Positions 39,550 to 63,968 of a stretch of 64,000 nt of DNA are shown here, one piece after another. This DNA comes from Owenia fusiformis (lineage: Eukaryota; Annelida; Polychaeta; Sabellida; Oweniidae), in contig CAIIXF020000011.1 in assembly GCA_903813345.2 (NCBI GenBank), positions 809,001 through 873,000 on the forward strand, read 5' to 3'. The stretch's first letter is position 1. Every line of letters starts with the position of its first letter. Under the pieces are notes generated by a model. It had not been told where the DNA came from, ran no database searches, and saw only the letters and a list, made by a program, of their open reading frames with translations. Both the position numbers and the translations under genes were made by a program.

Positions 39550-39728
39550 TTAGGACCTGTATAATAGCATGCGTTCACAACAAGTCTGACCAACTAATTT
39601 TGCATACTGTAAAACTTCATCTTGGTCGCATACATTTTCTCCTACAGCTTTGTATATCATATATGGCATTGCCTGCCTCAAATAGAGCACCAGAACATTG
39701 TCAAGTTCTATAGTCCCATTTGTATCTC
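39550..39728 (-). CDS. ATE1: Arginyl-tRNA--protein transferase 1, last coding exon
   Basis: Minus strand, from acceptor CTGTCAG (AG at 39729-39730) in phase 1 to TAA at 39550-39552. It encodes the ATE1 C-terminus: a QAMPYMIYK segment, then LQYAKLVGQTCCERMLLY close to the stop, a signature of the animal ATE1 C-terminal domain. ATE1 transfers arginine from Arg-tRNA to N-terminal acidic (or oxidised Cys) residues, marking proteins for the Arg/N-degron pathway in cytosol and nucleus. The phase matches the donor of the exon at 42680-42797. The apparent ATG at 39774 is intronic. Confidence 0.85.
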
Positions 39729-42160
39729 CTGACAGCACAAATATATGTTGTAATGAATTTGATGTTTGGCCCATAACAAAAGTTTTCTTTTAATTTACCA
39801 TTTTGGGTAGTAACACGTAAGAACATTTTTGTTATGGATCAAGTAACCTACCCAATGAATTTTGTCATTGTATTTTAATATTATTTTGGTGATAAATATG
39901 TATTTTGTAAATAAATGTATATTGATGCGCATTCTGGGTTATGCCACACATATAACACGCCCATAGTCAGGCAGGTGGAGTGGGTGTGGTTGTGTTCTAT
40001 AAAATTATTTTATTATAAGTACATCAATATTATGATAACTAATGCATATACACAACGGTTTTAACCTATATAAATATATTATTCAATATTTAAATGTATG
40101 AATTTTCAAAACTGAAAATAGTGAAAAAATGATGCCCTGATAGCCACCACAAGAGAATGAATTCTGCCTCGCTATTCAAAGTTGCCTCCTCTGTATTTTG
40201 CCTCTTCTGTATTTTGCCTCACCTGTATTTTGCCTCTTCTGCATTTTGCCTCTTCTGTATTTTGCCTCTTCTGCATTTTGCCTCACCTGTATTTTGCCTC
40301 CTTTGTATTTTGCCTCACCTGTACTTTGCCTCCTCTGTACTTTGCCTCGCCTTTGTTTTGCCTCATCTGTATTTTGCCTCACCTGTATTTTGCCTCTTCT
40401 GTATTTTGCCTTACCTGTATTTTGTCTAACCTGTATTTTGCCTCACCTGTATTTTGCCTCCTCTGTTTTTTGCCTCATTTTTATTTTGCCTCACCTGTAT
40501 TTTGAATAATCTGTATTTTGCGTCATCTGTTTTTTGCCTCACCTGTGTTTTGCCTCACCTGTGTTTTGCCTCTTCTGTATTTTGCCTCACCTGTACTTTG
40601 CCTCCTCTGTACTTTGCCTCGCCTTTGTTTTGCCTCATCTGTATTTTGCCTCACCTGTATTTTGCCTCTTCTGTATTTTGCCTTACCTGTATTTTGTCTA
40701 ACCTGTATTTTGCCTAACCTGTATTTTGCCTCCTCTGTTTTTTGCCTCATTTTTATTTTGCCTCACCTGTATTTTGAATAATCTGTATTTTGCCTCAGCT
40801 GTTTTTTGCCTCACCTGTATTTTGCCTCTTCTGCATTTTGCCTCCTCTGTATTTTGCCTCACCTGTATTTTGAATAATCTGTATTTTGCCTCCTCTTTAC
40901 TTTGCCTCATTTGCATTTTGCCTTACCTGTATTTTTCCTCACCTGTATTTCGCCTCATCTATTTCAATTTGCCTAACCTATTTATTTTAACTAATTCTGC
41001 TTATTTAAATTTGGCTTATTATCAGGACTTTTGGCCAGTTGAATTGAACTTGATTTTTCAAGATTATCGTTATGAATTCATATGAGGCTATTGTATGAGT
41101 GGCATAATCAATTGATAATGATTGATTCAATTGTACTTTTTCAAAAATGTATGTAAATAATTGTTTTAACATTATTTAAGGAATAAAGACCAAGATTTTA
41201 TGATTCATGGTGTCATGACAAAAATGTTATTCTGTTCATTGTTAAAAGACTGAAATCGCTTATATTGAGGTCTTTGGGAATAGAATGGCCTGAATAAAAT
41301 TTGAGGTCATCTATTTGACATAAATCATTAAATTAAAATTTTAGCGGTTATACATATTCCAATATAGACCAGTAAATCAATTGTTCTAGCTATTGTGATG
41401 TCACGTATCATTTTAGAATATAGATGATATAATTCAAAATAAAAATGTTTTGTTACAATTGTGATGTCAAGCAGTTACCCCATGCGATACACTGTGACAA
41501 TACGAATTATAATATTCAAACATTGAGAAAAAAACAGAAAGAAAAAACACTTTAATTAGATTTTGGATTGGAATCAAAAACTCTTTGATATATCGATGTC
41601 ATCATCAGTCATTTTCTTGGACCTTAGGACAGTTTATTTTCCACATAATGTGGTTCTTATGCTATTCAAACGCTGAAAAAAAAGAAAGAAAAAACTATTT
41701 ACTCAGATTTTGAGGGGGGGTGAACTATGTGTACCTTTATCAGTTAATACATAATAATAAGAGAATATTGAATTCTTCAGTTAACATTCTGGCGCTAGGA
41801 ACAGTAGATATAGATGAATTGCTATATAGCTGAATGAAGCTAAAAAGATGTCAGCACTTGTTTATTATTTATTTTGATGGGCCATAGACTGGACTGCCAT
41901 AGTCTTAGAAAAGTTGAAAACTGATGGAAATTGATTGAAATAACATAACTGTGTAAATCAAAGTTATCATCAGAGAAAACTTTTCACTGAATTCAAATAT
42001 GTCATTAAAAAGAAGGAAAACAAAGACATTAAAGGTTTCATATGCAAATCTCCTAAAATTACACGAAAATGAGAACAAGTGACATTTCAAAATCCGCATT
42101 AATTTTACAAGGGTTTCCCTGAATACAAAATATATGCGCAATGGGGATGGGAGCACATAC
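39729..42160 (-). other. ATE1 intron (last), largely repeats
   Basis: Separates the last ATE1 exon from the exon-fragment array. It holds a 16-bp minisatellite at 40190-40970. The remainder (39,730-40,185 and 40,975-42,095) is AT-rich with no gene seen. Confidence 0.7.
40186..40975 (+). repeat. 16-bp minisatellite TATTTTGCCTCACCTG in an ATE1 intron
   Basis: About 49 units of 16 bp, with variants such as CTCTTCTG, CTCCTCTG and ATAATCTG. A run of 17 units is repeated with the same variants at a 272-bp step (for example GCCTTACCTGTATTTTGTCT at about 40408 and 40680), so there is a higher-order repeat. As 16 is not a multiple of 3 and the unit lacks stops in most registers, several overlapping long frames appear on both strands. 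They are artefacts. Confidence 0.9.
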
Positions 42161-42223
42161 TTTTGTCAGTAGCAGCAAATCTGGAGTATTTGTTGACATC
42201 TAGTTTAGGCGTGCATTCTGGCA
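42161..42223 (-). CDS. ATE1: ATE1 candidate cassette exon (copy 3)
   Basis: 63 nt between TTCCCAG and GTATGTG on the minus strand. It reads PECTPKLDVNKYSRFAATDK from the second codon, phase 1 at both ends and without a stop, so inclusion would keep the ATE1 frame. Whether it is spliced is unknown; it may be a pseudo-exon. Confidence 0.4.
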
Positions 42224-42333
42224 CTGGGAACAATAGATAGATATATCTACTGGCACAAGTTTTACAAGAAATGGATATAGAGGGGGGTTCCCTTGATACA
42301 AAATATATGAGCAATGGGGATGGGAGCACATAC

Positions 42334-42396
42334 TTTTGTCAGTAGCAGCAAATCTGGAGTATTTGTTGACATCTAGTTTAGGCGTGCATTCTGGCA
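42334..42396 (-). CDS. ATE1: ATE1 candidate cassette exon (copy 2)
   Basis: Same 63-nt segment as at 42161-42223, with acceptor-like TTGTTCCCAG and donor GTATGTG. Frame-preserving and stop-free. Expression unproven. Confidence 0.4.
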
Positions 42397-42506
42397 CTGG
42401 GAACAATAGATATATCTATCTACTGGCACAAGTTTTACAAGAAATGGATATAGAGGGGGGTTCCCTTGATACAAAATATATGAGCAATGGGGATGGGAGC
42501 ATATAC

Positions 42507-42569
42507 TTTTGTCAGTAGCAGCAAATCTGGAGTATTTGTTGACATCTAGTTTAGGCGTGCATTCTGGCA
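42507..42569 (-). CDS. ATE1: ATE1 candidate cassette exon (copy 1)
   Basis: Same 63-nt segment, with a slightly weaker donor (GTATATG). It is the copy closest to the real exon at 42680-42797. Frame-preserving and stop-free. Expression unproven. Confidence 0.4.
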
Positions 42570-42679
42570 CTGGGAACAATAGATATATCTATCTACTGGC
42601 ACAAGTTTTAGAAGAAATGGATATAGAGGGGGGTTCCCTTGATACAAAATATATGAGCAATGGGGATAGGAGCACATAC

Positions 42680-42797
42680 TTGTCTCAGTAGCAGCAAATC
42701 TGGAGTATTTGTTGACATCCAGTTTAGGCGTGCATTCTGGCACTGGGAACCACAGGTAGCTTTCTGGGCACAGGAGATATGATCCAGCATACTTTCC
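42680..42797 (-). CDS. ATE1: Arginyl-tRNA--protein transferase 1, internal exon
   Basis: 118 nt from acceptor TTTTCAG (AG at 42798-42799) to donor GTATGTG (42679 downward), phase 0 to phase 1. It begins GKYAGSYLLCPESYLW and continues FPVPECTPKLDVNKYSRF, matching the ATE1 C-terminal domain just after the CPKM motif encoded by the preceding exon. The last codons differ from those of the three downstream cassettes (ATET against ATDK). Its 3' half has been duplicated in tandem downstream. Confidence 0.85.
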
Positions 42798-46568
<3,771 letters not shown>

Positions 46569-59082: not shown

Positions 59083-61095
59083 TTGAACTTTTTAATACAC
59101 TGATGTACTTGAAGCACATCACATACTATATCCCAATAAAAATTCAATTCAATTCAATTCAGCTTTATTTTCTTATATAGTATTATTTACAAGGTTTTAC
59201 ATGACACCCTTGTGGGTGTATACAGTATAAAGAATATGTTGTTTGAATAGTAGGTATATGGTAATCAGCTGATCCAATGATGAACACTTACTAAGACTAA
59301 CTATAACTAGTACACATTTAAATTGAAACATACTCATGAGCGAAGTTTAACCTTTCAATGTAAGGATGTACTTTGAACATCATAAATAATGTGCCAAATT
59401 AAACTATACTAATGCGCCAAATTGAACTTTTTAATATACTGATGTACTTGGAGCACATCACATACTATGTCCCAAATTGAAGCATACTCATGAGCCAAGT
59501 TTAATCTTTCAATGTAAGGATGTACTTTGGATATCATAAATAATGCGCCAAATTGAACTATGATAATGCACCAAATTGAAATTTTTAATATACTGGTGAA
59601 CTAACTGCACATCACATACTATGTCCAACATTGAAACATACTCATGAGCCAAGTTTAACCCTTTAATGTAAGGATGTACTTTGAACATCGTAAATAACGC
59701 GCCAAATTGAACTATGATAATGCGCCAAATTATACTTTTTAACATACTGATGAACCTGGAGCACATCACATACTATGTCCCATTGAAACATACTCATGAG
59801 CAAAGTTTAACCTTTCAATGTAAGGATGTACTTTGAACATCATAAATAACGCGCAAAATTGAACTTTTTAATAAACTGATGAACTTACAGCACATCACAT
59901 ACTATGTCCCAAACTGAAACATACTCATGAGCCAAGTTTAACCTTTCAATGTAATGATGTACTTTGAACATCATAAATAATGCGACAAATTGAACAATGA
60001 TAATGCGCCATATTGAACTTTTTAATATACTGATGAACTTGGAGCACATCACATATTGTGTCCCATTGAAACATACTCATGAGCCAAGTTTAACCTTTTA
60101 ATATAATGATGTATTTTGAACATCATAAATAATGTGCCAAATTGAACTATACTAATGAGCTAAATTGAACTTTTTAATATACTGATAAACTTAGAGCATG
60201 TCACAGATTATTTCCCAAATTGAAACATACTCATGAGCCAAATTTAACCTTTCAATGTATGGATGCACTTTGAATATCATAAATAATGCGCCAAATTGAA
60301 ATATACTAATGCGCCAAATTGAACTTTTTAATATACTCATGTACCTGGAGCACATGACATACAATGTCCCAAATTGAAACATACTCATGAGACAAGTTTA
60401 ACATTTCAATATAAAGGATATACTTTGAACATCATAAATAACGCGCCAAATTGAACTATGATAATGCGCCAAATTGAACTTTTTAATATACTGATGTACT
60501 TGGAGCACATGACATACAATGCCTCAGATTGAAACATACTCATGAGCCAAGTTTAACCTTTCACTGTAAGGATGTACTTTGAACATCATAAATAATGCGC
60601 CAAATTGAACTATACTAATGAGCCAAATTGAACTGTTTAATATACTGATGAACTTAATTAGAGCATGTCACAGACTATTTCCCAAATTGAAACATACTCA
60701 TGAGCCAAGTTTAGCCTTTCAATGTAAGGATGTACTTTGAACATCATAAATAATGCGACAAATTGAAATATACTAATGTGCCTAATTGAACTTTTTAATA
60801 TACTGATGTACCTGGAGCACGTGACATACTATGTCCCAAATTGAAACATACTCATGAGACAAGTTTAACCTTTCAATGTAAGGATGTTCTTTGAACATCA
60901 TAAATAACGCGCCAAATTGAACTATGATAATGCGCCAAATTGAACTTTTTAATATACCGACAAACTTAGAGCATATCACATACTACGTCCCAAATTGAAA
61001 CACTCAAGAGCCAAGTTTAACCTTTCAATATAATGATGTATTTTGAACATCATAAATAACTCGCCAAATTGAGCTATACCATTGCGCCAAATTGA
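59083..61095. repeat. 154-bp satellite array
   Basis: CATACTATGTCCCAAATTGA and TAAGGATGTACTTTGAACAT recur at about 154-bp steps (for example 59470, 59624, 59778, 60214, 60368, 60836, 60989), some units lacking a short block. Minus-strand frames of 65-86 codons recur in many units (…SIWRIIIVQFGALF…), but the period is not a multiple of 3 and the frame breaks at unit edges, so I treat them as repeat artefacts. Confidence 0.9.
59137..59318 (-). mobile_element. 3' end of a CR1-like non-LTR retrotransposon
   Basis: On the minus strand it ends AATAAAGCTGAATTGAATTG followed by further ATTGA units, a tail typical of CR1/L2-type LINEs in invertebrates. It splits a satellite unit (…TCCCAA | AATTGAAACATAC…). 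Only about 180 bp remain and no reverse transcriptase is present. Confidence 0.6.
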
Positions 61096-61149
61096 ACTTT
61101 ATATACCAAACCTCCAATTTACCGAGACACAAATACAAATCAGCACAAA

Positions 61150-61635
<486 letters not shown>

Positions 61636-61661
61636 GAAGCACATCACATACTATATCCCAA

Positions 61662-61843
61662 TAAAAATTCAATTCAATTCAATTCAGCTTTATTTTCTTA
61701 TATAGTATTATTTACAAGGTTTTACATGACACCCTTGTGGGTGTATACAGTATAAAGAATATGTTGTTTGAATAGTAGGTATATGGTAATCAGCTGATCC
61801 AATGATGAACACTTACTAAGACTAACTATAACTAGTACACATT
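61662..61843 (-). mobile_element. CR1-like LINE 3' end, duplicated copy
   Basis: Copy of 59137-59318 carried by the tandem duplication; same junctions with the satellite, so it is not an independent insertion. Confidence 0.6.
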
Positions 61844-63622
61844 TAAATTGAAACATACTCATGAGCGAAGTTTAACCTTTCAATGTAAGGATGTACTTTG
61901 AACATCATAAATAATGTGCCAAATTAAACTATACTAATGCGCCAAATTGAACTTTTTAATATACTGATGTACTTGGAGCACATCACATACTATGTCCCAA
62001 ATTGAAGCATACTCATGAGCCAAGTTTAATCTTTCAATGTAAGGATGTACTTTGGATATCATAAATAATGCGCCAAATTGAACTATGATAATGCACCAAA
62101 TTGAAATTTTTAATATACTGGTGAACTTACTGCACATCACATACTATGTCCAAAATTGAAACATACTCATGAGCCAAGTTTAACCCTTTAATGTAAGGAT
62201 GTACTTTGAACATCGTAAATAACGCGCCAAATTGAACTATGATAATGCGCCAAATTATACTTTTTAACATACTGATGAACCTGGAGCACATCACATACTA
62301 TGTCCCATTGAAACATACTCATGAGCAAAGTTTAACCTTTCAATGTAAGGATGTACTTTGAACATCATAAATAACGCGCAAAATTGAACTTTTTAATAAA
62401 CTGATGAACTTACAGCACATCACATACTATGTCCCAAACTGAAACATACTCATGAGCCAAGTTTAACCTTTCAATGTAATGATGTACTTTGAACATCATA
62501 AATAATGCGACAAATTGAACAATGATAATGCGCCATATTGAACTTTTTAATATACTGATGAACTTGGAGCACATCACATATTATGTCCCATTGAAACATA
62601 CTCATGAGCCAAGTTTAACCTTTTAATATAATGATGTATTTTGAACATCATAAATAATGTGCCAAATTGAACTATACTAATGAGCTGAATTGAACTTTTT
62701 AATATACTGATAAACTTAGAGCATGTCACAGACTATTTCCCAAATTGAAACATACTCATGAGCCAAATTTAACCTTTCAATGTATGGATGTACTTTGAAT
62801 ATCATAAATAATGCGCCAAATTGAAATATACTAATGCGCCAAATGGAACTTTTTAATATACTCATGCACCTGGAGCACATGACATACAATGTCCCAAATT
62901 GAAACATACTCATGAGACAAGTTTAACATTTCAATATAAGGATATACTTTGAACATCATAAATAACGCGCCAAATTGAACTATGATAATGCGCCAAATTG
63001 AACTTTTTAATATACTGATGTACTTGGAGCACATGACATACAATGCCTCAGATTGAAACATACTCATGAGCCAAGTTTAACCTTTCACTGTAAGGATGTA
63101 CTTTGAACATCATAAATAATGCGCCAAATTGAACTATACTAATGAATTGACAAATTGAACTGTTTAATATACTGATGAACTTAATTAGAGCATGTCACAG
63201 ACTATTTCCCAAATTGAAACATACTCATGAGCCAAGTTTAGCCTTTCAATGTAAGGATGTACTTTGAACATCATAAATAATGCGACAAATTGAAATATAC
63301 TAATGTGCCTAATTGAACTTTTTAATATACTGATGTACCAGGAGCACGTGACATACTATGTCCCAAATTGAAACATACTCATGAGACAAGTTTAACCTTT
63401 CAATGTAAGGATGTTCTTTGAACATCGTAAATAACGCGCCAAATTGAACTATGATAATGCGCCAAATTGAACTTTTTAATATACCAACAAACTTAGAGCA
63501 TATCACATACTACGTCCCAAATTGAAACACTCAAGAGCCAAGTTTAACCTTTCAATATAATGATGTATTTTGAACATCATAAATAACTCGCCAAATTGAG
63601 CTATACCATTGCGCCAAATTGA
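61844..63622. repeat. 154-bp satellite array, duplicated block
   Basis: Second block of the satellite, offset 2525-2527 bp from the first, with a few small indels (for example near 63144). Confidence 0.9.
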
Positions 63623-63676
63623 ACTTTATATACCAAACCTCCAATTTACCGAGACACAAATACAAATCAGCACAAA

Positions 63677-63968
<292 letters not shown>

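Follow-up and report, generated by a model that had tools for sequence, protein, structure and literature searches.

Do partial copies of an exon, standing in tandem behind it in the ATE1 gene of the annelid Owenia fusiformis, serve as exons themselves, so that their number sets the range of protein isoforms? ATE1 encodes the arginine-adding enzyme, and the window in which the copies were found is a stretch of 64,000 nt, positions 809001–873000 of contig CAIIXF020000011.1 (hereafter C11), within a searched genome of 498 Mb and 525 contigs. A first-pass annotation of this window had proposed that inclusion of zero to three 173-bp copies would insert repeats into the C-terminal domain of the enzyme, and had drawn an analogy with the alternative exons of mammalian ATE1. 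As far as the excerpt of one study states, tandem exon duplications are common, and some of those lacking annotation, at least, may be expressed (PMC9013439); the excerpt of a further study deals with the mutually exclusive exons 7a and 7b of ATE1 and with RNA structure (PMC8052449). Among the titles and abstract openings returned by a literature search, no paper on a cassette array in ATE1 was found.

Results

Paralogous ATE1 blocks on one contig

ATE1 lies on the minus strand of the window, which contains its Pfam ATE_C exons and last two coding exons: two copies of exon 8 (63766–63947 and 61239–61420) and exon 9 (45911–46004), all three matching ATE_C, exon 10 (42680–42797; 118 nt, GKYAGSYLLCPESYLWFPVPECTPKLDVNKYSRFAATET, donor phase 1) and exon 11 (39550–39728; the last coding exon, acceptor phase 1). 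The exon numbers are our own, modelled on the mammalian gene, and are not an annotation. When joined, exons 10 and 11 match residues 421–518 of human ATE1 isoform 2 (PDB 8tzv_A) with an E-value of 3e-22.

ATE1 exons occur in several blocks on C11. Block A (C11:914–936 kb) holds the only complete-looking ATE1 found, in which ATE_N exons, one 7a/7b pair, an exon 10 followed by two cassettes, and exon 11 are present; its exons, joined by eye, give a 516-residue protein. Block B, the block of the window (876–848 kb), contains two 7a/7b pairs, two exons 8, exon 9, exon 10 with three cassettes, and exon 11. Its exons and splice sites look intact throughout C11:848550–875772, that is, from window position 39550 to past the window end. 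ATE_N and ATE_C stand together in block A, whereas block B shows ATE_C exons only. B is a 5′-truncated duplicate whose sequence sets in where exon 6 ends or intron 6 begins, with AT in place of the donor GT; the stretch between B and A yielded no exon 1–6 match other than a single weak one, near 878 kb, which contains a stop (35%, E 0.77). The window holds only the 3′ part of ATE1, as a truncated duplicate, so any question of isoforms bears primarily on gene A, the complete one. Since B lies ~38 kb downstream of A in the same orientation, splicing from the 5′ exons of A into B is conceivable.

Block C, which is inverted, contributes exons 10 and 11, with no cassettes found in the 1040–1048 kb fetched; block D contributes part of exon 8 and exons 9 and 11, with no clear match to exon 10 in the 626–636 kb fetched. 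Searched against the genome with very common words skipped, the full 704 bases of the annotated stretch (42097–42800) matched at three places: the window, A, and C. The cassette copy number is two in A, three in B, and zero in C, paralogue counts that represent search matches only, behind which gaps or missed candidates could hide others.

Three further features of the contig were observed. ATE1 exon 11 is found at nine places on C11, A–D included and one of them partial (914552, 848553, 1047193, 626750, 783732, 709176, 2072848, 2132245, and 2230167), and exon 10 at three; the spread of the last exon is perhaps that of a spreading segmental duplication. In all three 7a/7b pairs (C11:929084–929439, 875416–875772, and 873253–873607) the gap between 7a and 7b is 31–33 nt, which is too short for ordinary splicing and would therefore enforce mutual exclusion. 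Finally, gene A contains between its exons 2 and 3, at C11:931800–931889, part of an ATE_N exon in a second copy (KYCHKSTVDVTCCPHFTLRCKTLEF...), which retains 73% identity to the real exon over 30 residues and keeps TCCP...RC; it is one more duplicated exon fragment in this gene and possibly an alternative exon.

A 173-bp array built on the end of exon 10

Tandem Repeats Finder reports an array of period 173 bp and 3.7 copies at 42111–42750 on the minus strand (97% matches, score 1196), in agreement with the three copies originally described as following the exon; in this minus-strand gene, copies that follow exon 10 lie toward lower coordinates. An array is not in itself unusual here, because tandem arrays of period at least 10 make up 24% of the window. 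Large minisatellites between ATE1 exons occupy 42962–45685, 40182–40960, and 59320–63627 (19-bp, 16-bp, and 154-bp units).

The unit of the array repeats the 63 nt at the 3′ end of exon 10, and the window contains three extra copies of them, each bounded like an exon, as had been claimed: cassette 1 at 42507–42569 (donor GTATAT), cassette 2 at 42334–42396, and cassette 3 at 42161–42223 (donor GTATGT in both), all on the minus strand and in phase 1-1. CCCAG precedes and GTAT follows all three, and successive cassettes are 110 nt apart. The three are identical to one another and carry three changes relative to exon 10, the end of which reads GAGACAA in A and B; the cassettes and block C have GACAAAA at this point. 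Downstream of cassette 3 the flank is intron as in block C. The copies are homologous to the neighbouring exon, lie in the same gene and orientation, keep the frame, and have splice-site-like borders on both sides, as tandem exon duplications do; only 63 of the 118 nt of exon 10 are copied, however, so that they are partial-exon copies rather than a whole duplicated exon.

Because the cassettes are stop-free and in phase 1-1, joining 0, 1, 2, or 3 of them between exons 10 and 11 leaves the frame open to the normal stop, each adding the 21-residue block MPECTPKLDVNKYSRFAATDK. The absence of stops and the preservation of frame are not independent, since the copies derive from coding sequence and the 1-1 phase brings both; the phase itself would match by chance about one time in three. 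If exon 10 instead continues as far as a later donor, each of the three resulting forms hits the same stop, after ...QNARLN.

A 28-nt relic resembling the cassette acceptor joint lies beyond the array at 41785–41812 (minus strand) and is present in A and C too, in C without an array. In C, the relic agrees with two window cassettes at 26 of 28 positions but with exon 10 over 18 nt only; the window relic has, by eye, one mismatch more. If C never had the array, the relic predates it. The new joint could have arisen by recombination of such a relic with the exon. For the linker, no match with E < 0.3 was found in the fetched region besides the arrays and a self-palindrome.

Splice-site quality of the cassettes

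Sites were scored with a weight matrix derived from gene A, the complete one, using ten of its acceptors and ten of its donors, no cassette sites among them; these were assigned by reading frame, and the acceptor of exon 4 (−3.5 when left out) may be misplaced. The acceptors of cassettes 1, 2, and 3 score 7.17, 7.17, and 7.77 bits, values equalled or exceeded by 1.3%, 1.3%, and 1.0% of the 4847 AGs of the region, a background that includes the cassette sites themselves. Leave-one-out scores of the real acceptors lie between −3.49 and 11.11, six of the ten below 7.17. The coding bases TTCCCAG had been said to become the acceptor of each copy, and the scores bear this out with one refinement: within exon 10 the same letters score only −1.81, a value equalled or bettered by 33% of AGs, so that it is the linker, and not the coding letters alone, that makes the acceptor.

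The cassette donors (5.58 for cassette 1 and 6.25 for cassettes 2 and 3) equal the donor of exon 10 (5.96), and 3–4% of 4974 GTs, the cassette donors among them, are as good. They are nevertheless on the weak side, because the exon 10 donor is itself in the matrix and, when left out, falls to 2.82, the lowest of the ten, the other nine real donors scoring 6.16–10.45. With acceptors above six of ten real ones and donors like that of exon 10, some level of cassette inclusion is plausible. With eight AGs per unit, the chance of so good an acceptor is ~0.10; combined with the one-third chance of a matching phase, this would amount to a modest coincidence of ~3%, judged post hoc.

The cassette acceptors are closely preceded by the short palindrome TAGATATATCTA (window 42234–42249 and the equivalents in other units). 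It gives self-hits on the opposite strand, and a putative hairpin there could hide the cassette acceptor.

An identity tract common to A and B

Exon 10 and the array, ~791 nt together, show 4 substitutions between A and B, besides a 1-nt indel and one complete unit; the count varies with how two units are aligned to three. The flanks differ far more, at 22 of 160 positions before this tract and 54 of 836 after it. The regions of exon 8 (58 of 458 positions differing) and 7a/7b (29 of 498) played no further part in the analysis, and the exon 9 region (161/536) was dropped, since its alignment apparently ran into a minisatellite. The apparent gene-conversion tract spans 41851–42810 in the window (minus strand; approximate ends, placed by offset from A 917480–918269), from 14 nt before exon 10 to ~260 nt beyond the last cassette. 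At the far-flank rate its Poisson probability is 3e-17, with the 118 coding bases included uncorrected.

The 262 nt past the array are identical in A and B (0/262 vs 54/836, Fisher 5e-7), whereas A and B each differ from C at 17 of 261 positions. Because C diverges from both at the usual rate, this stretch is not slow-evolving, and ultra-conservation of the array was rejected in favour of conversion. The identity tract is most simply accounted for by recent gene conversion, in one direction or the other, between A and B.

Tests for selection

Compared with the exon of C, the window cassettes differ at 3 of 63 positions, and the second cassette of A and exon 10 of A and B at 4 of 63. The adjoining intron differs from C at 3–4 of 44, so that the coding part of the cassettes does not stand out as better preserved; no sign of constraint on the 63 nt was seen in this comparison, which has few differences and low power, and whose record conversion erases.

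Over exons 7a, 7b, 8, 9, and 11 (exon 10 left out), A and B show dS 0.101 and dN 0.018, a ratio of ~0.18, with 15 synonymous and 11 nonsynonymous differences (Fisher 2.5e-5), a constraint-like pattern. Polarized with C and D, which was done for part of exon 8 and exons 9 and 11, the A branch carries 6 synonymous and 3 nonsynonymous changes and the B branch 2 and 4, with 2 synonymous changes unplaced; within B, exons 7a, 7b, and 8 each exist twice, and 4 synonymous and 8 nonsynonymous changes separate their copies. Measured against the synonymous share of 0.215 expected under neutral, uniform mutation, a significant deviation appears for A (P 0.0045) but not for B (6/18 synonymous, P 0.17). Fragment D, in which no exon 10 was found and exon 8 is partial, also has a low ratio to A (0.19), and the unpolarized dN/dS is for this reason no proof of use. 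A claim that block B is functional on the strength of dN/dS was dropped, since the B branch alone shows no departure from neutrality.

Discussion

The anatomy of the array, the phases, the site scores, the A/B identity tract, and the copy numbers are best explained, with a probability of about 0.72, by a young partial-exon duplication that yielded plausible cassettes, was carried between A and B by gene conversion, and is mostly skipped or included at a low level without a selected role. Under this explanation, a young tandem duplication would have repeated the last 63 nt of exon 10 together with its donor and ~110 nt of the DNA that follows. At the new joint, coding TTCCCAG would have met a pyrimidine-richer stretch, creating a good-looking acceptor, and each copy would therefore have become a complete, frame-keeping cassette exon by accident. 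The array would then have passed between the paralogues A and B by gene conversion, its copy number diverging to two in A and three in B, with none in C. The cassettes are probably skipped for the most part, or included at a low level without a selected role. Two points call for caution: the array is present in the complete gene A as well, and a lack of constraint is weak evidence.

The proposal of copy-number isoforms fared unevenly. The copies do keep the frame and do vary in number between paralogues, but the genome gives no sign of their use or selection, and what is seen suits DNA that is young and was recently converted. Use of the cassettes as alternative exons, contributing 0–3 blocks of 21 residues before exon 11 in B and 0–2 in A, would accord with their phase and open frame at every copy number, with acceptors (7.2–7.8) well inside the range of the ten real ones (−3.5 to 11.1) and donors (5.6–6.25) that bracket that of exon 10, and with a spacing of 110 nt, unlike the short gap between 7a and 7b. 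We consider it unlikely, given that the 63 nt show no excess conservation, that C lacks the array, that the donors score low against the nine remaining real donors and gain from the presence of exon 10 in the matrix, and that frame symmetry and so good an acceptor could each arise by chance at the rates given above. A bolder version, in which a paralogue-hopping array with a self-made acceptor adds blocks according to its length, is spread by conversion, and shifts the isoform repertoire as a minisatellite allele shifts, appears quite unlikely from these sequences. Four near-identical donors and three good acceptors might instead act as decoys that lower or tune the joining of exons 10 and 11, with mRNA decay of the run-on forms, which share the same stop; there is no sign of selection keeping the array, and this role strikes us as very doubtful. 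Tandem arrays are hard to assemble, yet misassembled reads are an extremely improbable source of this one, which was found twice, with different copy numbers, private substitutions, and flanks differing by 6–14%.

The array is best read as a young partial-exon tandem duplication with plausible splicing potential. Like the tandem exon duplications described in the excerpted study (PMC9013439), it places an exon copy with splice-like borders and a kept frame in the neighbouring intron; it is unlike them, as far as that excerpt goes, in that the copy takes in only the 3′ 63 nt, its acceptor arises newly at the joint, and the unit belongs to a 173-bp minisatellite-like array apparently moved by conversion. 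The 7a/7b pair treated in the excerpted ATE1 study (PMC8052449) is likewise a duplicated exon of the same gene, and a 7a/7b-like pair is present here once in A and twice in B; it is separate from the array and a different case, its members being whole, diverged exons (58% protein identity in A) with a gap of 31–33 nt, in contrast to partial cassettes that are identical in the window and lie 110 nt apart. Intronic minisatellites consist of near-identical head-to-tail units in variable copy number, and the array resembles them in all three respects, with the difference that its unit contains the end of a coding exon and a donor.

These paralogues may therefore capture an early stage in the birth of cassette exons, in which the joint supplies the acceptor and the parent exon supplies the donor and the frame. 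Paralogues with zero, two, and three copies allow a before-and-after comparison, and, if transcripts include the copies, a change in repeat number would directly set the protein isoforms.
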